Source: Candidatus Brocadia sapporoensis (lineage in GTDB: Bacteria > Planctomycetota > Brocadiia > Brocadiales > Brocadiaceae). From it: 64,000 nt of DNA. Positions 5,467 through 59,954 of this stretch are shown in pieces (the first letter of the stretch is position 1; each line of letters opens with the position of its first letter). The stretch spans positions 1-64,000 of the forward strand of contig NZ_MJUW02000114.1 of assembly GCF_001753675.2 (NCBI RefSeq), written 5' to 3'. The position numbers were made by a program, and so were the translations under genes. Below the pieces are notes generated by a model. That model saw only the letters and a program-made list of their open reading frames with translations. It searched no databases and was not told where the DNA came from.

Positions 5467-7053
5467 ATGAAATTTGAAAAATTAGTGTTGCAAAATCCAT
5501 GCTCGGCAGAAGAAGAGCTAAATAAGGCTGGAGTAAAGACCGTTGTTAGCGAATCGAATGATTTTTATGGTGCAAACAGTTTAGAAACATTTTCAAGCGC
5601 AAGCGGACTGACCTACACGCACGAAGATGCAGATGGATTTTTAGATTATCCAACATCGTTTGCAGGAAAATCTGCAAACTACTGGCGTAAGGATGCAGGA
5701 GTGAAAGTGTGGGCTTACGAAGAAACGTACGATAATTGGCAGGACACATACGGTATGGATGCAGTGATGGTATTTTATCATTCCGGCCATGGCAACATGG
5801 ATAACAACGGCGTATTTCAAGCACCACTGGGCGGTAAATGGGATAACCGCGATTGGGCATTCTCGAATAACATGGCGTTCGCAAACGAAGAGTTGCGCTA
5901 TCTCTTCTGGTCAACATGTTTTTCGCTGCGAGTATCCGGCCCGGATAATCCGGTGCGAACATGGTGGAATCCGAACAAAGGCGGACTCAGAATGATGTTC
6001 GGCTATGAAACCACCAGCGTTGACGATCCGAACTACGGCAAGTTTTTTTGGGATGAATGGAAGAAAGGGAAAACATTTGCCCGTGCATTTTTGGATGCGA
6101 GCTGGAGAATCAGCCATAATCAGGTTCCTGTGGTAATGGCAGCAGGAGCGAATGCAAGTGATGCAATCAATCGATTGAATAACGAGCGATTCTTTTCGCG
6201 AACGCCCGTTACCAAGGGTTGGTATCAGTGGCAATGGATTGGAACTCTACCGACGCGTTCGTTTGCGAGCGAAAGAAGTGTTCCAAAGCAACTCAGCGGC
6301 ATTATACTGAACAACAAGTTTGCAAACGACGAGTTCATTGCAAAAATTGCAAGCAAGGTTGGTGTTACACAAAAAGATGCCGCAATCCTTCTTGATCCAA
6401 ACGGCAATCGTATGTTGTCAACGAAAGAAGTTCATACGAATGTAAACAACCAAGGCGCATTGAATTTGTATTTCGGCAAAACTAATATACAGAATGCCTC
6501 TCTCCTCGATGAGAACAAAGCAATCAAGATCGCTCAAAATATCATTAGCGATCTCGGTTTGAACGAAGGAATCAAATTAACGTTAGGAAATATCCGGCAT
6601 TGTTTTACTTCCGGTGGAACATTGAAGGGAAGTGGCACGATAGAAAAGCCATATGCGGTTGAAACAATTGTTCAGTTCCGCCAGAGTCATGAAGGAGTTA
6701 AAAGTATCAATTCAGACCACGGGCTTATAGCAGTTAGCATTGATAATGATGGACGCATTGTCAACCTTTACGATTCTACGAAATTGGTGCTAGGAGAAGT
6801 TGACAAGCGTGCACTGAATGCATCATCACCGCCTGATCCGAAAGGTTCCTCTGGTACAAATACTGAAGCACAGTTCAAGAAGAAGATTGATAGAATCCTT
6901 GCTGACAGCGAAAGTAAATCTTCCGTACTTCATGAAACGGTTGGCTACGATTTTTCCGGAAATCTTGGTACCCTTGTTCATCAGAAGGAAATTGAAGTGG
7001 ACTTCGGACAGAATCTGAAGAAGCGTTACAAAGTAAGAGTGCCATTGGAGTGA
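5467..7053 (+). CDS. Caspase-like (DUF6345-type) protein
   Basis: A 528-residue protein without a recognisable signal peptide. Residues about 95-230 have the clan CD cysteine peptidase signature: a hydrophobic strand, then FYHSGHGN with the putative catalytic His (about 106-110), and a second strand leading to LFWSTCFSLR with the putative catalytic Cys (about 148). GLRMMFGYETT follows. I associate this arrangement with the DUF6345 family. The C-terminal 250 residues contain extracellular-looking repeats without a recognised domain. GGGAGGG lies nine bases before the ATG. Within this locus it could cleave a leader peptide or act as an effector; both are inference. It follows the variant riboswitch. 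Confidence 0.72.
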   Translation: MKFEKLVLQNPCSAEEELNKAGVKTVVSESNDFYGANSLETFSSASGLTYTHEDADGFLDYPTSFAGKSANYWRKDAGVKVWAYEETYDNWQDTYGMDAVMVFYHSGHGNMDNNGVFQAPLGGKWDNRDWAFSNNMAFANEELRYLFWSTCFSLRVSGPDNPVRTWWNPNKGGLRMMFGYETTSVDDPNYGKFFWDEWKKGKTFARAFLDASWRISHNQVPVVMAAGANASDAINRLNNERFFSRTPVTKGWYQWQWIGTLPTRSFASERSVPKQLSGIILNNKFANDEFIAKIASKVGVTQKDAAILLDPNGNRMLSTKEVHTNVNNQGALNLYFGKTNIQNASLLDENKAIKIAQNIISDLGLNEGIKLTLGNIRHCFTSGGTLKGSGTIEKPYAVETIVQFRQSHEGVKSINSDHGLIAVSIDNDGRIVNLYDSTKLVLGEVDKRALNASSPPDPKGSSGTNTEAQFKKKIDRILADSESKSSVLHETVGYDFSGNLGTLVHQKEIEVDFGQNLKKRYKVRVPLE

Positions 7054-7169
7054 TAGAAAGTTTGCAGTTGTGGCTGGGTTATTAGTAATTTGGCAACGCA
7101 AGCTTTTGCACAACCAAAAAATGAATCAGAATCAAATTATTATGGGAAAGATTGAAAAGGATAAGATCA

Positions 7170-51563: not shown

Positions 51564-52118
51564 TTAGACAATTTTAAACGACAAAATCTCTTTGCCTGTA
51601 ACTGAAATATCCGCAAGAAGCCTTTCTATGTTTCCTCCGATTGCGGCATAGGCAACAAATATTTTATCCGCCAGTTCTGCCATGAGCCGGTTCCTCCGGT
51701 TCGCTGTTTCTACGGTAACCCGCTTAACGTTCTCGTCAAATGGGGAAATGAGCAGGAGTCTGTTTTTGTTTAAGGCTTCTTGCAATTCTGGTTCGAGTCG
51801 TTTTTTAAACCCCCTTGCCAGTACAAGTATTATAGGCTGGTTTCCTTTTAAAAGGTAGTGCAAAACGTCTTTCTCTATTTTGGAATGAAAACCTGATACA
51901 ACACAGACGCCTTTTTCCCTTTGTTCAATTGCCCAGTCATATGATTTGAGGATGATATCAGCAGGACACTTGCGGGAACATAGGAAGGCGATCTTGTATT
52001 GTTTGAGTATTTGTTTGTTCCCAATATAATGCAGGGGCGATGCATTTTTTGTAACAAAATCCTGGCACAATTCATTCGGTGAAAAAAATGCTTCGCCCCT
52101 ACGGTTCGTTGTCGACAT
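51564..52118 (-). CDS. DprA/SLOG-like Rossmann protein with repeat-derived N-terminus
   Basis: A 184-residue protein. From YIGNKQILKQYKIAFLCSRK onward it shows the DprA/SLOG nucleotide-binding fold: VCVVSGFHSKIEKDVLHYLL, QPIILVLARG and LLISPFDENVKRVTVETANRRNRLMAELAD. DprA proteins load RecA on DNA; smaller SLOG relatives bind nucleotides in defence systems. The first 27 residues (MSTTNRRGEAFF to ASPLH) are encoded by the palindromic repeat at 52031-52104 and by the end of the preceding gene, so the original start has been lost or replaced. It overlaps the transposase gene by 20 bases. Confidence 0.75.
   Translation of the reverse strand: MSTTNRRGEAFFSPNELCQDFVTKNASPLHYIGNKQILKQYKIAFLCSRKCPADIILKSYDWAIEQREKGVCVVSGFHSKIEKDVLHYLLKGNQPIILVLARGFKKRLEPELQEALNKNRLLLISPFDENVKRVTVETANRRNRLMAELADKIFVAYAAIGGNIERLLADISVTGKEILSFKIV
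52031..52104. repeat. GTAGGGGCGAAGCATT palindrome, copy A
   Basis: Ends GCAGGGGCGATGCATTTTTT and AAAAAAATGCTTCGCCCCTAC form an imperfect 20-bp inverted repeat with about 35 bases between. Read on the minus strand, its edge supplies the TAG stop of the RAYT gene, while the body is translated in another frame as RRGEAFFSPNELCQ...NASPLH at the N-terminus of the DprA-like protein. Confidence 0.88.
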
Positions 52119-52869
52119 AATCCTGTCCCGTGCGGTATTTGATATCGTAGCGAATGCCTGTCCTGAGCTTAGCCGAAGAGATGAAATCTAATTCCTCATT
52201 CGTAAAATTGCATCTCTTTTTTGTTTCGTATTTCAATTCTTCTTCAGATACATTGCACCTGTCAGGATTATCCATATCATATGGCCACATAAGCGGATTA
52301 TATGTGATATACCGGCGAATGGCATTTAAGGCATATTCGTTTCTGACAATGTGTTCATAATAATTGCGCTGCCAAAGCGTAGTGCCCGGGGATTTGTTCA
52401 ATTGGTTGATTTTTCGTGTGGAAACAGATTTGAAATTCTGCATAATTGCCCCCAGCGAACCGGAGGATGTTCCATGAGGTGATTGCGTTATTGGGTGTAG
52501 GGGCGAAGCATTTTCCGTGACGAGACCTGGGCACGATTTCATGGGCGAGGAAAATGCTTCGCCCCTACGGTCGATATTGGCATCGGTGATGATGATAATC
52601 CCATGGATATGATTTGGCATAACAACGCATGCATCCAATCGAATGTGTGCAAAATGTTTCGGTATGTTATTCCAGCACGCATGAATCATAGTGCCAAATT
52701 TGTTCAATTGCATGATTTCGTCAGAAATTTCCCCAAAGAGGCATTTCCCTTTTTCTGTACACATGGTCACAAAATAAGCGCCTGGCCTGGTATAATCGTA
52801 TCCCTTCAGCCGTATTGAACGGCGATGGTGTTTTTCAGGATCGTAATTTGTGTTTTTATTTTGTTGCAT
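52099..52869 (-). CDS. REP-associated tyrosine transposase (RAYT, Y1 family)
   Basis: A 256-residue single-strand transposase of the Y1/HUH type. The metal-binding HxH is in VVMPNHIHGIII and the catalytic Tyr region is TLWQRNYYEHIVRNEYALN. GYDYTRPGAYFVTMCTE near the N-terminus is typical. Two oddities: about 25 residues (RRGEAFSSPMKSC...NASPLH) come from an in-frame copy of the palindromic repeat, and the last about 33 residues closely match the C-terminus of the neighbouring methyltransferase, with a ten-residue insertion. RAYTs mobilise REP palindromes, so it is the likely source of the repeats here. Activity is unproven since the fold carries an insert. Confidence 0.88.
   Translation of the reverse strand: MQQNKNTNYDPEKHHRRSIRLKGYDYTRPGAYFVTMCTEKGKCLFGEISDEIMQLNKFGTMIHACWNNIPKHFAHIRLDACVVMPNHIHGIIIITDANIDRRGEAFSSPMKSCPGLVTENASPLHPITQSPHGTSSGSLGAIMQNFKSVSTRKINQLNKSPGTTLWQRNYYEHIVRNEYALNAIRRYITYNPLMWPYDMDNPDRCNVSEEELKYETKKRCNFTNEELDFISSAKLRTGIRYDIKYRTGQDYVDNEP
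52497..52570. repeat. GTAGGGGCGAAGCATT palindrome, copy B (inside RAYT)
   Basis: A 74-bp element with arms GTAGGGGCGAAGCATTTTCC and GGAAAATGCTTCGCCCCTAC, which pair perfectly. It lies inside the transposase reading frame and is translated on the minus strand as RRGEAFSSPMKSCPGLVTEN plus ASPLH. Confidence 0.92.
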
Positions 52870-52934
52870 GGGTGTTTTATTACGTGTTTTTTTGATTACA
52901 TGGGTTGTTGATTATCAATTGCCGATTGTTGATT

Positions 52935-53009
52935 GTAGGGGCGAAGCATTTTTTTGTTACAAGATTCTGGCACTATTCATTCGATGAAAAAAATGCTTCG
53001 CCCCTACGG
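52935..53009. repeat. GTAGGGGCGAAGCATT palindrome, copy C (intergenic)
   Basis: A 75-bp element between the RAYT start and the methyltransferase stop, with arms GTAGGGGCGAAGCATTTTTT and AAAAAATGCTTCGCCCCTAC. The interior (CTGGCACTATTCATTCGATG) resembles copy A, so these two are the closest pair. Confidence 0.9.
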
Positions 53010-53033
53010 TTTACGGTTTAACGTTTCTACATT

Positions 53034-56000
53034 TCATGGTTCATTGCCGTCATAATCCCGTCCCATGCGGTACTTGATGTCGTAGTTGATGATGAAGTCT
53101 AATTCCTCATCGGTGAAACCGTAATGCTGGGCTAATACCTTGTCGATTTCGTCTATGATGGGTTTGGATAATTTAGGATAAAACTCATCATATACAACTT
53201 TTCCAGTTGCTTTATACATACATTCCTTGCGTTGTTTATGTTGTTTCAAATCTTTCATAAGTCTTTCAGAAAGGACAGATAATTGTTCCTTTGTTTCTTT
53301 TGACATTTGAGCCAGTCCAATAGGAAAGTTTTCAATTTCCCTGAGGTTTAAATGACGGCAATCTGAAAGTATGATAAACCACCAATAAAAAAGGGAACTA
53401 TTGAGTATTGCTACAACAACGGAAGCATCAATATTGTTTGATGCATGCAATTCTTTAACCTGTGTTGAAATCTGCTCACCATCCCTTTCGTTCCAGAAAT
53501 ATGGCGCAAAGTCCATTGCGCGAATCCAATATTGAGGAGCATTATGAAAATAAACATGATGTTGTGAGAATTCTTTTATGTAATAAACTACCTTTTCTAA
53601 TTTATTTATTCGCTCTCGAATCAAATTAGCTGTAACATTACCTATTTTTGGAATCGAACCATCCATGATATATTTTGAGATTTCAGAAAAATTTAATAAT
53701 TCAAAGAGCAGTGGACGTACATCGGAATACCAACGATTATAATTTGTTGAATAAATATTTTTTACTTTGAATTTGCCTTTTTTAGATAGCACAATGGTAG
53801 CCCGAATATGCTCTAATCCATCAAACAATTTAGCTGGTCGGTCGTCAAAGGTAGCAAACCAAACAGAATCATTGCTATTTGCGATTTTATTTTGTAGTGG
53901 TTTCATTCGGTCTGTACAGACTATTGGCAATTGCACAATCATTCCGCATCGTCCACCATTAGTAATTAAGTTTAATGAGCTTTCTATTACATACGCATAC
54001 AAATTCCCGCAGTTTTCTGTTTGATAACCCTGAATTGTATATGTCTTTTTTACCTTTGAATACTCCACATACGGCGGATTACCAATAATCACATCAAACC
54101 CACCTTTGTCGTGTATGATCTCATAAAACTCTGCAAACCAGTGGAAGGGCTGGTGGGCGGCCTTCCATTTTTCAAAGTCCTTCGGCTTTCTCTCAACATC
54201 GATAGAATAGATTTGAGCAAGGTAGACATTCAACTTTTCATTTAACTTTTTCAGTCGTTCTTCTAAATCCTTTTTGGCGCCGCTCATCGCAGGACTGTCA
54301 ATAAGTATCTGAGAATCTTTAAAGTGCTCATATGCCATCTTTATCATTTCTGCCTGTTCTTTTATTTCTTCTATCTCCTTTTTATAAAATGTGAGTTTGA
54401 ATACCTTTTCTACATCTTCAAGCCTTGCAAAGCCCACAAGCGTATTGCCCGCCCGGATATTAAAATCAATATCAGGCAGTGGTTCCAGTCCCTGGTTTGG
54501 TTTTTTATAATCCACGTCTACCGTCGCCACCAGTTTCAGGAATAACCGCAGCTTGGCAATTTCCACCGCCTCATGCATGATGTCCACGCCGTAGATATTC
54601 TTCAAGATGATGTTCTTATAAATGAAATATTGAAGGTTGGGGTGTTCGGGTGATTTAACAAACTTTAAGGTGTCTTCAAAGAATTTGTATTTAGACACAC
54701 CCCTTTGTCCCCTCTCGAGAGGGGAATTTTTGGACATACCCCTTTCATGAGGGGCATTGTTGGCATCTGCAACAAATGCCTCCATGCGCTGGATGCAGGC
54801 TTCGTAGAGTGATTCAAGGATGTTGATTGCGGCAAACAGGAATGCACCCGAACCGCAGGTGGGGTCGAGTATGGATATGTTTAATAGTGCCTTATAAAAA
54901 TGTCTGATAAATTCGGGATCATCGCTGTTTTCAATGACGTCCTGGGCAAACTGCCGGATGTTGAGGTTATACGTAATAAAATCGTTTATCCCGTGTATTT
55001 CGCCGTTTTCAATCTTTGTTTTAATCTCTGCATAACGTCTCCTTCTTTCAACCACCTCGCGCCATATTTCCGTGGGTAGTCCATATTCGGGCGGGGCGGG
55101 TTTATTCCATAGTGTTCGTTTCGACACGTCATTCAATCCTTCGGCAATTTCAGGCGACAATGGTAATTGTTGTGGTAATGGTAGGGGCGAAGCATTCTCC
55201 GGTGTACTCAATCGTTTTGAATAATCGACATCTTGTGTTGTTGATAAATATTGTGTGGGTTGTGCGGGAGAATGCTTCGCCCCTACGGTGTCAACGATGC
55301 CGTGTTTGACAGCATCATACATGTATTTGTCAGGATCTGATTGTAACAATTTCCAGATTTCACCATCAGGGTTGAATGCCTTTGGATAATGTCTCTTTAC
55401 CTCATCGAACAGATAGGGGATGATGCAGTTTTTACTGATGTAGTCCGTGATGTCCTCTTTTGTGTAATAAGCCCCCATGGACGCACGATCGTTAATGTAT
55501 TTCTCAAATATATAGCCAATAACGTCGGGGTTTATGTCCCTCCCTGTGGCGGCAATACGTGTGTCCAGGTGCCATTCGTACTGATCAAAGAAGCTGAATA
55601 CCTGCTCAAATGCCTCATCTGCTATCTCGATGTTGGCGTAGTTTTGCTCTATATGGTGGACATCGAACAAGCCGCCGTTGAGATACGGCACGATGCCGAT
55701 TTCCTTGACAAGTTCCTGGGGTCTTTCATGAGAACCAAGTCCTTTATGGAAGAGGACGAGCAGGAAATTTCTATAAAATGAGTAAAACTTGTCCTTGCCT
55801 TTCTTCTCCTGTGTGGCTTTCAGTCTGTTTTTCAAATAGTCTTTGTCATTATCCAGAAATCCCTTTTTCTGGATAAAATAGATGAACATCAGGCGGTTCA
55901 GCATGAGGGATGCATACCAATCCTTATCCACATTTTCGCTAATGCCTTTTATGAAATTCAAAAATGAGGTGTGTTCTTTTTTGAACTGGTCGAAAAACCG

Positions 56001-56504
56001 TTTCGTAACCCTTTCTGCGTTAGTATTGAACTGCTCTTGTATGAGGGATTTGACATCCATGATACTGATCTTTTCCTCGTCATCGATGGAGAAGAAAAGC
56101 CCTTTGAGTTTCTGGAACAATAGTTCTGGTTCCTGATGTGTATAGTAGTTCGTCTCCCTTAGCGCTGTCGGCTTTCCTTGTTCACGCACTGCCAGTTGCC
56201 AGCATAGATGGCCTTGAGGCTGGTCACAAAAGATAATGAGGTGTTCAAAGTAGAGTTTGGTTATAACGCCGTCTATCTTCTTTCTGATGTGATAATCGGG
56301 TATTCTGCCATTATTTTCTGGTGAGCAGGCAAAGACGACAAATCCCTTTTTTTCAGCCACAGCATCCAGGGTGTACGATTTATTTTCGACGACTACCTGT
56401 TCTTTTTTCCTAACATTATCCCATCCCAATTCATTAAAGAGTTCTTTGAATTGAAAGGCGTTTATGAGCTGTTTAAAGCGTGTTTTGTTTATGGTTGCGG
56501 CCAT
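53034..56504 (-). CDS. Eco57I/PglX-like N6-adenine DNA methyltransferase
   Basis: An 1156-residue restriction-modification type protein. The SAM motif is LDPTCGSGAFLFAAINILES (about 541-560) and the catalytic motif IV is IIGNPPYVEYSKVK (about 808-820), as in N6-adenine methyltransferases of the Eco57I, type ISP and BREX PglX groups. The C-terminal 300 residues look like a target-recognition region. I see no clear PD-ExK nuclease motif at the N-terminus. Two repeat-derived inserts are carried in frame: 36 codons at 55181-55288 and about 22 codons near 54694-54760. It directly follows the PLD-SNF2 helicase gene, so the pair probably works as one system. Confidence 0.87.
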   Translation of the reverse strand: MAATINKTRFKQLINAFQFKELFNELGWDNVRKKEQVVVENKSYTLDAVAEKKGFVVFACSPENNGRIPDYHIRKKIDGVITKLYFEHLIIFCDQPQGHLCWQLAVREQGKPTALRETNYYTHQEPELLFQKLKGLFFSIDDEEKISIMDVKSLIQEQFNTNAERVTKRFFDQFKKEHTSFLNFIKGISENVDKDWYASLMLNRLMFIYFIQKKGFLDNDKDYLKNRLKATQEKKGKDKFYSFYRNFLLVLFHKGLGSHERPQELVKEIGIVPYLNGGLFDVHHIEQNYANIEIADEAFEQVFSFFDQYEWHLDTRIAATGRDINPDVIGYIFEKYINDRASMGAYYTKEDITDYISKNCIIPYLFDEVKRHYPKAFNPDGEIWKLLQSDPDKYMYDAVKHGIVDTVGAKHSPAQPTQYLSTTQDVDYSKRLSTPENASPLPLPQQLPLSPEIAEGLNDVSKRTLWNKPAPPEYGLPTEIWREVVERRRRYAEIKTKIENGEIHGINDFITYNLNIRQFAQDVIENSDDPEFIRHFYKALLNISILDPTCGSGAFLFAAINILESLYEACIQRMEAFVADANNAPHERGMSKNSPLERGQRGVSKYKFFEDTLKFVKSPEHPNLQYFIYKNIILKNIYGVDIMHEAVEIAKLRLFLKLVATVDVDYKKPNQGLEPLPDIDFNIRAGNTLVGFARLEDVEKVFKLTFYKKEIEEIKEQAEMIKMAYEHFKDSQILIDSPAMSGAKKDLEERLKKLNEKLNVYLAQIYSIDVERKPKDFEKWKAAHQPFHWFAEFYEIIHDKGGFDVIIGNPPYVEYSKVKKTYTIQGYQTENCGNLYAYVIESSLNLITNGGRCGMIVQLPIVCTDRMKPLQNKIANSNDSVWFATFDDRPAKLFDGLEHIRATIVLSKKGKFKVKNIYSTNYNRWYSDVRPLLFELLNFSEISKYIMDGSIPKIGNVTANLIRERINKLEKVVYYIKEFSQHHVYFHNAPQYWIRAMDFAPYFWNERDGEQISTQVKELHASNNIDASVVVAILNSSLFYWWFIILSDCRHLNLREIENFPIGLAQMSKETKEQLSVLSERLMKDLKQHKQRKECMYKATGKVVYDEFYPKLSKPIIDEIDKVLAQHYGFTDEELDFIINYDIKYRMGRDYDGNEP
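54694..54760. repeat. LERG-type repeat inside the methyltransferase gene
   Basis: A tract of CCCC and GGGG arms (CCCCTTTGTCCCCTCTCGAG / AGGGGAATTTTTGGACATAC / CCCCTTTCATGAGGGG) makes two consecutive small palindromes. On the minus strand it is translated as NAPHERGMSKNSPLERGQRG within the methyltransferase, just after motif I. The same peptide style marks dispersed repeats in other bacteria. Boundaries are approximate. Confidence 0.7.
55181..55288. repeat. GTAGGGGCGAAGCATT palindrome, copy D (inside methyltransferase)
   Basis: A 108-bp version with arms GTAGGGGCGAAGCATTCTCC and GGGAGAATGCTTCGCCCCTAC and a longer interior than the others. Its length is exactly 36 codons, so the methyltransferase frame is kept. 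The translation runs TVGAKHSPAQPTQ to RLSTPENASPL. Confidence 0.9.
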
Positions 56505-56535
56505 TTTGATTTTTATAATTATTGTATTGTACGGT

Positions 56536-56607
56536 GTAGGGGCGAAGCATTTTCCGTGACAAGATATGGGCGCAATTTGTGTGGTAAGGAAAATGCTTCG
56601 CCCCTAC
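56536..56607. repeat. GTAGGGGCGAAGCATT palindrome, copy E (at the helicase stop)
   Basis: A 72-bp element with arms GTAGGGGCGAAGCATTTTCC and GGAAAATGCTTCGCCCCTAC. On the minus strand its first bases give the TAG stop codon of the helicase gene (AAG-TAG-GGG). It fills most of the 99-bp gap to the methyltransferase start. Confidence 0.92.
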
Positions 56608-59600
56608 TTTGTTTTGTTTTTAATTAACCCTAAAGAACAAATGATTTGGGGTTCTTTACAGGTCTTTTCATCTTCCTTTGTATTACACAATTTGTCTTCA
56701 TCCCGTAATGATACAACTAAATTTGCCAGGTCTTCATCCGAAATACCAGCTTTTAGCTGCCTGTTTAATGTTTCCCGGGCAAATTCTTTTAAGGGGAATT
56801 TGTATAAATCATCTATCGCCCTTTTCAGCGCTTCATTTACAAACAGGGTGCCTTTGTATTCCTCATAGTAGCGGTTCAAGCGCATGTACGTCCTGTAACG
56901 CGCTCCAGATTTTTTACCTAGCTGACCGCCAATAGTGCTTTCAACGTGCTTTATATGTTCAATACCCTTTTCCACCAGTTTGTGATGATTATCCATTTTA
57001 TATAATGCGGGGGTATTGGGGGTACATTCCGCTGCCTTAAGAATTTCAAGTTGAGACTGTGAAATGATTTCCCCCTTTCTATCCACCCATACTAAGACAT
57101 CATTATCATCCGCCGTCCGTGTGTACACGACAACGCCTTCATCCTTTTTCATGTATTCTTGTTTTAGTGATTTCGTGGCATAAATTACATGAGGCAGATC
57201 AGGGATTGTCTTTTTCAGGGTTGGGTCGGCATCAGTGGCATTTTTCCATATCTGATAAGCATAGGACGCCAAATCAACCTCTGTGTCATCTTCTTCATCA
57301 AGAATGCCCTGTTTTTCGTTGTAAAAGTCATGAATTTTAACAGGGTCGCCGTCAAAAAATACCTCGTCAGAACCAACAACCTCGGCGTTTTCTTCTATCC
57401 TTTTTCTCAGCCTGCCTCTCAATTTTATAATTTTTTCTATGCCTTCTTCAGGTAAAAATGAATAGCAAAGAATTTTATCCGACTTCTGTCCAATTCTGTC
57501 TATCCTTCCTGCCCTTTGAATAAGCCGGATAATAGCCCAAGGCAGGTCATAATTCACAAGAATATGACAATCCTGCAGGTTTTGTCCTTCGCTTAAGACA
57601 TCGGTTGTTATTAAAACCCTTATTTCATTAGAGGTATTTATAATTTCTTTTTTATCGTTGCTTACCGGGCTAAATCTGTAAACGTAACTTGTAGGGTCTT
57701 CGCTGTCGCCGGTAACGCACTCTATCTGCTTTATATTTCTCCTTTTCAATTCGTCTCGCAGATAATATGCCGTGTCTGCAAACTGGGTAAAGATTAAAAT
57801 TTTATCTGTTGAGTGTTTTTTTATACAGAGATCGTATAAGGCGTTTAATTGCCTGTCTTCAGCGGGATTCCAGTCCTTGCCGATCTTTAAAATCTTCAAA
57901 ATTTCTTTGTTGTCATTGAGCAATATATTTTTTAGTGTCGCTTGAAAGAATCCGCTTCTGATCCAGTCAAAACGGTTATGGTAGCTTGTTTCGTATAATG
58001 TATAAATTTTTTCGGCCTGTACATAGTAGTCTTCTTCATGAAGTAAAATCCTGATTGCGCCTTCATTTGTGCCTGCATTATCCGGGTCAACGTCATCCAG
58101 GAACTCGTCAAGCAAATTTGCCTCCTGGGCGCCAATGGGAAGGGGGAGGTTATTCTCTATTGCATACGCATAAATAGAGTTACGCAGAACATGCCGGCTC
58201 AATGATACCAGAAAGGAATAACCGCTGCTTTCGAGCCTTTTAAAGAGGTTGGTTCTGCAAAAGCCCATGAGCCGTTTGCCTGCATGGGAGAGATTATCCT
58301 GGATGACGGTTTCTTCTTTTGTTGGTTTAAGAGTAGTCTTTTTATCGAGATAATTGCCCAGTCCATATCTCGGAAGATTTAAACCATTAATGGTATCTAC
58401 AATGACGTCAGAGTATAGTTGCGCATATTGATCTTTCGGGTTGTTGGGATTGAAGTCGTATTCAACTTTCTTTGGCAATCTGTCGGGAAAATAGGAACGA
58501 CCTCCATCCGAAAACAAGAGATATTTCCTTCCATTGGCGGGATCGGTTTCAGCGTAGTTCTGTTTAATAAAGCTTCTTGGCCTTCTTACCATATACAGCC
58601 GCATCAGTTCACGCCAATCATCTGCATAATCACTTTTTTCGAATGCAGGCAACGTTGTTGCAGGGTATTGATATTTTGCCATAAACTGAACCCTGCCGCC
58701 GATGCTTTCAATAAACTTCTCCGGGCATATGCCCAGATCTTTATCTTCCGGAATAAAAAGCCGGAGCTGGTTGGACAGGTCAAGATATGTTTTATTATAG
58801 GGGGTAGCTGAGAGCATAATAACCTTGCTCTCGTTAATCTGGATGTATTCCTGAATAGCCCTGTATCTCTTGCCTTCCCTGTTTCGTAAATTATGGCTTT
58901 CGTCAATAATGATTAACCGGTATCTCCTCAATGTTGGCAGAGCCGATTGAACTTGAGTAATGGGCAAGACCTTTGCCCGCAATTGATATGTATGCGCGTA
59001 GTCCTCCCACATATTTGTAAGGTTCCTGGGGCAGATGATGAGCGTTTCAAGGAAGAAGTCTTCCTCAAATATCTTGGCTAAAGCGGTGGCTGTAAGGGTT
59101 TTCCCGAACCCAACAACATCGCCAATTATGACACCATCCCTCTTATTCAGGTAATGTGCGGCTATCGAGACGGCTTTTTGCTGGAAACCATGCAATTTCT
59201 CCTGAAGAATCTTTGGGATTTTAAATTCTGTCAATCCTGCACGCGCCTCGCGAGATAAATGGTAGGCAATTTTCAGATAGATGTGATAAGGCGAAACTAA
59301 TCTGTCGGCAGCCCAGCTCGTATCAATTATTTCAATCAATTCTTTGGATATATCTATGCACCACCTGTCGTTCCATCTATCCTCGAACCAGGTTGAAAGT
59401 TTTAATGCTGCGTCCTGTTCCAGGACATCAACATTTAATTCGCCCTGATGAAGCAGACCGGCAAGGGTTAAATTGCTGCTGCCTAAGTAACCAATAATGG
59501 GACTAATCTTGTCATCTCTGAATAAGAGATATAATTTGGCATGTAACGGATGTTTTAAATAAAGTTTAACAACGACCTTTTTGTCTTTTATTTGTTGCGA

Positions 59601-59954
59601 TAACTTTCTTAAGCCGATCTCGTCTTCTTCCGTTGGGATGCCAATGGTTAACTGATCCTTAAATTCCTGCGCCAGTTTCTTTTTAATGGCGGATGCTGTT
59701 TGATTGTCAATAAGACCCTGCTCAGTTTTATAAAAATATTCACGTATGATTTCAAGGGGAGGTTTTTGCATGCCGATGAGCAGTCTGCAACAATTACCAT
59801 CACCCCCTTTGAGACTATCTATCCGGGCAGCAATCTCTTTCCACCCCCTCAGATTGAAATAGCCAACGCAGAAGTCGCCCCTGTGAGACACTTCTAAGGT
59901 ATTATTTAATCCCTGAACTAAATGATTTTCGATGTTGTCAAAGATTTTCGGCAA
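56604..59954 (-). CDS. PLD-domain SNF2-type helicase (restriction/anti-phage)
   Basis: An 1116-residue protein. The start is TTG at 59954, with AAGGGG six bases upstream overlapping the permease stop. Residues 1-200 form a phospholipase D-like nuclease domain (HPLHAKLYLLFRD with HxK, then YLGSSNLTLAG). A superfamily 2/SNF2 motor follows: P-loop IIGDVVGFGKTLTATAL (about 275), motif II IIIDESHNLRN (about 350), motifs V-VI ITTDVLSEGQNLQDC and QRAGRIDRIGQ (about 810-850). A charged C-terminal region ends the protein. Such PLD-helicases pair with adenine methyltransferases in phage defence, and the next gene is one. The helicase presumably moves on unmodified DNA and the PLD domain cuts it. Confidence 0.86.
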   Translation of the reverse strand: MPKIFDNIENHLVQGLNNTLEVSHRGDFCVGYFNLRGWKEIAARIDSLKGGDGNCCRLLIGMQKPPLEIIREYFYKTEQGLIDNQTASAIKKKLAQEFKDQLTIGIPTEEDEIGLRKLSQQIKDKKVVVKLYLKHPLHAKLYLLFRDDKISPIIGYLGSSNLTLAGLLHQGELNVDVLEQDAALKLSTWFEDRWNDRWCIDISKELIEIIDTSWAADRLVSPYHIYLKIAYHLSREARAGLTEFKIPKILQEKLHGFQQKAVSIAAHYLNKRDGVIIGDVVGFGKTLTATALAKIFEEDFFLETLIICPRNLTNMWEDYAHTYQLRAKVLPITQVQSALPTLRRYRLIIIDESHNLRNREGKRYRAIQEYIQINESKVIMLSATPYNKTYLDLSNQLRLFIPEDKDLGICPEKFIESIGGRVQFMAKYQYPATTLPAFEKSDYADDWRELMRLYMVRRPRSFIKQNYAETDPANGRKYLLFSDGGRSYFPDRLPKKVEYDFNPNNPKDQYAQLYSDVIVDTINGLNLPRYGLGNYLDKKTTLKPTKEETVIQDNLSHAGKRLMGFCRTNLFKRLESSGYSFLVSLSRHVLRNSIYAYAIENNLPLPIGAQEANLLDEFLDDVDPDNAGTNEGAIRILLHEEDYYVQAEKIYTLYETSYHNRFDWIRSGFFQATLKNILLNDNKEILKILKIGKDWNPAEDRQLNALYDLCIKKHSTDKILIFTQFADTAYYLRDELKRRNIKQIECVTGDSEDPTSYVYRFSPVSNDKKEIINTSNEIRVLITTDVLSEGQNLQDCHILVNYDLPWAIIRLIQRAGRIDRIGQKSDKILCYSFLPEEGIEKIIKLRGRLRKRIEENAEVVGSDEVFFDGDPVKIHDFYNEKQGILDEEDDTEVDLASYAYQIWKNATDADPTLKKTIPDLPHVIYATKSLKQEYMKKDEGVVVYTRTADDNDVLVWVDRKGEIISQSQLEILKAAECTPNTPALYKMDNHHKLVEKGIEHIKHVESTIGGQLGKKSGARYRTYMRLNRYYEEYKGTLFVNEALKRAIDDLYKFPLKEFARETLNRQLKAGISDEDLANLVVSLRDEDKLCNTKEDEKTCKEPQIICSLGLIKNKTK

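Follow-up and report, generated by a model that had tools for sequence, protein, structure and literature searches.

A probable REPtron with in-frame palindromic elements in Candidatus Brocadia sapporoensis

Genes and palindromic elements at the locus

The window, i.e. the whole stretch of 64,000 nucleotides that was analysed, comes from an anammox bacterium and carries on its minus strand the gene of a RAYT (TnpAREP) transposase (52099..52869), which is positioned between two palindromes, A and C. A DprA-like ORF (51564..52118, minus strand; identified by DNA_processg_A, PsyrA and homologues) lies downstream of it; a type IIG-like restriction-modification enzyme, below called the methyltransferase (53034..56504, minus strand; Eco57I, PADLOC REase_MTase_IIG), and a PLD-SNF2 helicase (56604..59954, minus strand) are located upstream. 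The DprA-like ORF, which resembles PsyrA, the type IIG-like enzyme and the helicase (51564-59954) probably constitute a defence neighbourhood.

Five palindromes with common arms had been proposed by the first-pass annotation, and all of them were recovered by sequence search within 4.6 kb of the window: A at 52031..52102, B at 52497..52568, C at 52935..53007, D at 55181..55286 and E at 56536..56607 (no strand assigned). Ten arms were observed versus 0.49 expected from shuffling, nine of them exact and the left arm of A with two mismatches; the five palindromes are thus confirmed as real and as far more abundant than by chance. Common to all is the double-foot REP architecture GTAG...CTAC with a constant 16-bp arm; the left foot of A (GCAG) is the exception, the other elements starting with GTAG and all ending with CTAC. 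The length is 72-73 bp in A, B, C and E, each of which encloses a loop of about 32 nt that is of one type in B and E and of a second type in A and C. The proposal that the copies share their arms holds for D as well, but D is not the same element as a whole: its arms are of the identical type, whereas the 106-bp element contains a longer loop that is unrelated to those of the other copies. The calculated folding energies extend from -26.6 (A) to -54.4 kcal/mol (D).

The coordinates agree with the positions that had been claimed for the individual copies. B is placed in frame in the RAYT gene, where it lies in the linker that connects the HuH motif with the tyrosine motif; the methyltransferase contains D, likewise in frame, and C is intergenic, upstream of the RAYT start. 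A lies at the RAYT 3' end, and both functions ascribed to it were recognised: the RAYT stop codon (52099-52101) is the TAG in the GTAG foot of A, and the same palindrome supplies the coding sequence for the N-terminus of the DprA-like ORF. As the stretch that separates palindrome A from the conserved domain of this ORF contains no ATG, GTG or TTG, its translation must start upstream of A or inside the A loop. Likewise, the helicase stop codon (56604-56606) is the TAG in the GTAG foot at the right end of E, as had been suggested. The sequences support the reading of A, B and D as translated insertions that would form loops or tails of the respective proteins. An unrelated second palindromic repeat, CCCCTCTCGAGAGGGGAATTTTT, is also present in frame in the methyltransferase (window 54700-54770); the segment is retained in the relatives G020 and G026 and missing in G024, and three further copies with 3 mismatches occur in the genome.

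The transposase and the palindrome in its linker

The transposase is a subclass 2.4 TnpAREP (RAYT group 4), a subclass that is defined by NHIH/WQ/YIxxNP-type motifs, double-foot REPs and in-frame REPs between HuH and Y (Quentin et al. 2018, PMC6006769). In the family search, the protein matched Y1_Tnp above the cut-off, and the best match of its predicted fold among all PDB entries was 4er8, in which a RAYT is complexed with a REP hairpin; NCBIfam NF047646 (REP-associated tyrosine transposase) remained below its cut-off (65.8 versus 80 bits), with the match limited to the part after the linker. Compared with the subclass 2.4 motifs NH[IFV]H, WQ and YIxNNP, NHIH and WQ are exact, and the tyrosine motif YITYNP is one residue off (YIINNP in several relatives). 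The gene is flanked by the double-foot REPs A and C, the feet of which follow the pattern 5' GT[AG]G and 3' C[TC]AC except for the left foot of A (GCAG), and the variable insertion between beta3 and alphaC with an in-frame REP is present as copy B. According to the predicted structure, the B-encoded segment forms a loop (pLDDT < 50) that leads from the HuH strand to the helix after it; the linker comprises residues 114-147 (open frame of 270 residues) and is predicted to be disordered. Quentin et al. 2018 (PMC6006769) model the in-frame REP insertion as a peripheral extension of the transposase. When plasmids were searched with the RAYT as query, only weak relatives were found.

The clade of this RAYT has a C-terminal tail of about 45 aa that shows homology to the C-terminal end of the methyltransferase next to it (window 52099-52220 and 53034-53180) and is missing from the other RAYTs in the alignment. 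Co-spreading of this tail with the palindromes elsewhere was considered but found no support, given stray tails in other genomes without a nearby palindrome. For subclass 2.4, in contrast, no C-terminal extension of the core has been reported, a feature not essential to its definition.

The comparison was extended to 63 RAYTs, some of them from Brocadiaceae and the others from genomes of other phyla (the latter chosen via genomes with the GCATT element and biased to that extent, the Brocadiaceae sample not). A GTAG-type inverted repeat was present in the linker after the HuH motif in 36 of the 63 sequences versus 0.15 expected from dinucleotide shuffles, whereas control regions of the same genes contained none in the upstream part and two in the downstream part; in the other 27 RAYTs a recognisable linker palindrome is missing. 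The palindromes differ between RAYTs and vary in their position within the linker, the GTAG foot being common to them. An arm matching the internal palindrome was found in the gene flanks of 24 of these 36 RAYTs, compared with 42 of 982 comparisons with the arms of other RAYTs (p ~1e-22). In the RAYT tree, palindromes of the GTAGAGAC or GTAGGGAC type characterise one clade, and GTAGGGGC prevails in the other; position 7 of the palindrome tracks the clade (A in 9/9 versus 3/25; p = 4e-6, a significance that is overstated as rows were treated as independent). A single origin of the RAYTs with GCATT palindromes was unsupported: the poorly resolved tree needs six changes, at least two of which are forced by well-supported branches. 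In G003, G008 and G010, all GTAGAGACGCACG copies fall within a RAYT match.

Distribution of the element and occupation of its sites in relatives

Pattern searches of the own genome (2.93 Mb, 123 contigs), on which the census of copies rests, revealed 11 exact arms, 9 of them in the window. Near-intact copies amount to six, five of which are clustered within 4.6 kb at the RAYT; the sixth is found on contig C108, just past a gene resembling glucose-6-phosphate isomerase (by-eye reading of the translation), and a few degenerate copies also exist. Among the relatives, the arm was detected in 22 genomes, all of the own family and some with more than 100 matches, and was absent from the genomes of other families in the order. 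In other Brocadia, the abundant palindrome forms the inner part of a larger unit, in which it is preceded by GTAACAATTTAGTTTTTTGAAAAA and followed by the inverse of this sequence, or vice versa (relatives G002, G008 and G009; the observation also concerns L059 on contig C108, 172-302).

A scan of the public genome collection for two arms 30-58 nt apart yielded at least 114 stretches with paired arms from Cyanobacteria, Chloroflexi, Deltaproteobacteria, Armatimonadetes, Calditrichaceae, Latescibacterota, a Chitinophagaceae bin and Brocadia; many of the stretches are metagenome-assembled contigs, the individual hosts of which may be misassigned. The Chitinophagaceae copy is probably misbinned, as indicated by its Brocadia-like flanking leader. 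Among the matches listed, the element mostly measures 67-76 bp in total, with loops that are specific to the lineage. The outer 16 pairs are prescribed by the search pattern, which leaves the next three free; these three are paired in most copies, with changes on both sides. An Anaerolineae ORF that resembles an rRNA methyltransferase by eye (L167, 4524-4596) contains the palindrome in frame.

The suggestion that palindromes are tolerated as coding modules stands for special sites, above all the RAYT HuH linker, but not in general: 11% of 126 copies from many phyla were located inside an ORF-like gene versus 60% of random placements, and 70% were intergenic versus 15% (ORFs were taken simply as the longest ones, which makes individual assignments uncertain, yet the contrast is large). 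A general coding-module reading was rejected on account of this strong depletion of the element in ORFs.

Sites A, B and D are occupied at identical positions in some relatives. At site D, D-type elements are present in G020 and G009 at the identical site, the segment is missing in G026, and unrelated sequence takes its place in G024; the methyltransferase of G026 is as close to the window protein as that of G020 (74% and 71%). Both halves of the inner stem of D differ between species (CTCC/GGAG versus CTCT/AGAG). Site A contains a translated palindrome in G007, G015 and G020 and none in G024. At site B, three close relatives possess the same element in the linker, and the B arms are unchanged among three RAYTs, whereas the rest of the gene has diverged. 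In a fourth relative, G002, the linker of the RAYT (L240, near 6430-7130) contains a different palindrome, GTAGGGGCGGGTTTAACCCCCGCCCCTAC. This RAYT looks mosaic: its outer parts are like the G009 RAYT, and the linker palindrome and the next helix are like another RAYT type. A clean one-step empty site was not found among the relatives, the G026 flanks at D differing beyond the element itself. The first-pass annotation had named orthologues that contain the inserted segments with no palindrome as evidence for ancestral protein sequence; the palindrome-free orthologues, however, either lack the segment or have unrelated sequence instead.

One palindrome of G007 has the left-hand flank of C on one side and the right-hand flank of E on the other, and precisely the interval from C to E, with the methyltransferase gene, is missing. 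A deletion in G007 is the likelier direction of this change, since G009, G020 and G026 have methyltransferase sequence at that place (with the helicase next in the alignment). The loop types at site E differ between species, which would point the same way, to recombination between copies.

Origin of the elements and of their in-frame copies

Taken together, the locus is very probably a REPtron, composed of a RAYT and cognate double-foot REPs, that mobilises copies nearby; the role of the RAYT as mobiliser of the palindromes, which had been conjectured before, is supported as likely by the clustering of near-intact copies at its gene. What the sequences establish is the anatomy of the elements, the match between internal and flanking palindromes, the linker placement and the site occupancy in relatives. 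According to this explanation, a subclass 2.4 RAYT, i.e. a HuH single-strand transposase, would be bracketed by its cognate REPs A and C and contain B as well, read in frame as part of a disordered loop of the transposase, the further copies D and E having been seeded to, or exchanged with, the neighbouring genes. The GTAG foot and the proximal stem would be recognised by the RAYT on single-stranded DNA, which would then be cut and rejoined, and the elements would be moved or copied mostly near the RAYT's own gene. Insertions into coding sequence may survive only if read in one of two stop-free frames and if positioned in a flexible linker or terminus. The copies may also recombine with one another, with loop changes and loss of the intervening DNA as the outcome.

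To what extent the cluster results mainly from such local recombination or gene conversion, instead of transposition, is a matter of weighing: the C/E flank junction in G007, the species-dependent loops at site E, the resemblance of the RAYT tail to the methyltransferase tail and the mosaic RAYT of G002 would all fit, but neither the arrival of copies at new sites such as D nor the spread of the arm over phyla is explained, and recombination as the main cause is considered possible but unlikely. The in-frame segments might also be ancestral protein sequence that is palindromic in appearance only, for which the presence of D at one site in three genomes could be adduced; the arms of the in-frame copies are, however, identical at the DNA level to those of the intergenic copies, which counts against this reading, and it was rejected as having hardly any probability, since relatives lack the segments (D is missing in G026 and replaced in G024, which is also devoid of A). 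The long terminal inverted repeats, the length of about 72 bp and the nesting of the palindrome in a larger inverted-repeat unit in other Brocadia are reminiscent of MITEs that are moved by a DDE transposase and lie near the RAYT by coincidence. Such an origin is highly improbable in view of the GTAG feet, the clustering at the RAYT and the finding that internal and flanking copies match each other in many RAYTs; furthermore, family searches of the locus proteins revealed no DDE transposase.

A different question is raised by the palindrome inside the RAYT, which might be a functional site kept by selection, either as an mRNA or DNA hairpin that limits expression of its own gene or as a master copy that links enzyme and substrate. 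The use of the identical linker in many RAYT lineages, the tracking of the RAYT clade by the palindrome type and the constancy of the B arms among three RAYTs despite divergence of the remaining gene would be in line with selection. So would the persistence of internal palindromes in genomes nearly devoid of further copies, which simple bombardment from the genomic population does not explain. On the other hand, 27 of the 63 RAYTs are without a recognisable palindrome, its position within the linker is variable, and a flexible loop alone would account for the site; selection on the internal copy is accordingly regarded as rather doubtful. Only tentatively, then, may the RAYT-internal palindrome be viewed as a conserved cognate hairpin, carried by the transposase gene itself, that serves to regulate the enzyme or to keep enzyme and substrate together as they spread across phyla; if this were true, the GTAGGGGCGAAGCATT element would be one horizontally spread family, the substrate of which is inherited within the reading frame of its enzyme.

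The REPtron reading is in agreement with known systems in most respects. The NHIH, WQ and YIxxNP motifs, the flanking double-foot REPs, the in-frame REP between HuH and Y and the scattered occurrence over phyla are shared with the subclass 2.4 REPtrons (PMC6006769); in contrast to that account, one 16-bp arm with a roughly constant element length was traced across phyla here, and a neighbouring methyltransferase also contains an in-frame copy. The GTAG foot, the use of its TAG as a stop codon and repeats lying wholly inside ORFs have likewise been described (Di Nocera et al. 2013, PMC3733652), although the families in that study are mostly short-stem REPs and their dimers, and the arm GTAGGGGCG is not printed in its full text. 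From in vitro experiments, two TnpAREP groups are reported to have co-evolved with their REPs (PMC8266576). Rickettsia palindromic elements (RPE) are similar in being translated in frame in genes likely encoding functional proteins; RPE-4 and RPE-6, however, are CGTC-tagged, repeats of this kind being without linkage to a transposase gene (PMC3733652), whereas the present elements are GTAG-tagged and RAYT-linked. In-frame palindromes in RAYTs were dropped as a novelty, being published in PMC6006769: both the linker palindromes and the supply of stop codons (PMC3733652) are prior knowledge. As far as the literature searched shows, new details are the 72-bp family that extends across phyla, the numbers obtained for the linker position and for cognate flanks, the presence of an in-frame copy in a restriction-modification gene and a deletion that runs from one palindrome to another. 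In the main texts of the openly available papers searched, no printed copy of the arm was found, and the search revealed no additional publication dealing with group 4 RAYTs.

RAYTs are domesticated transposases, and what the host gains from them is unclear. If the internal copy is cognate and kept, the palindrome recognised by a RAYT would be readable from the RAYT gene alone, and self-regulation or a linkage of enzyme and substrate would become a testable idea. In Candidatus Brocadia sapporoensis, the locus presents a non-coding repeat turning into protein sequence in a restriction-modification enzyme, and repeats that reshape a probable defence-gene neighbourhood.
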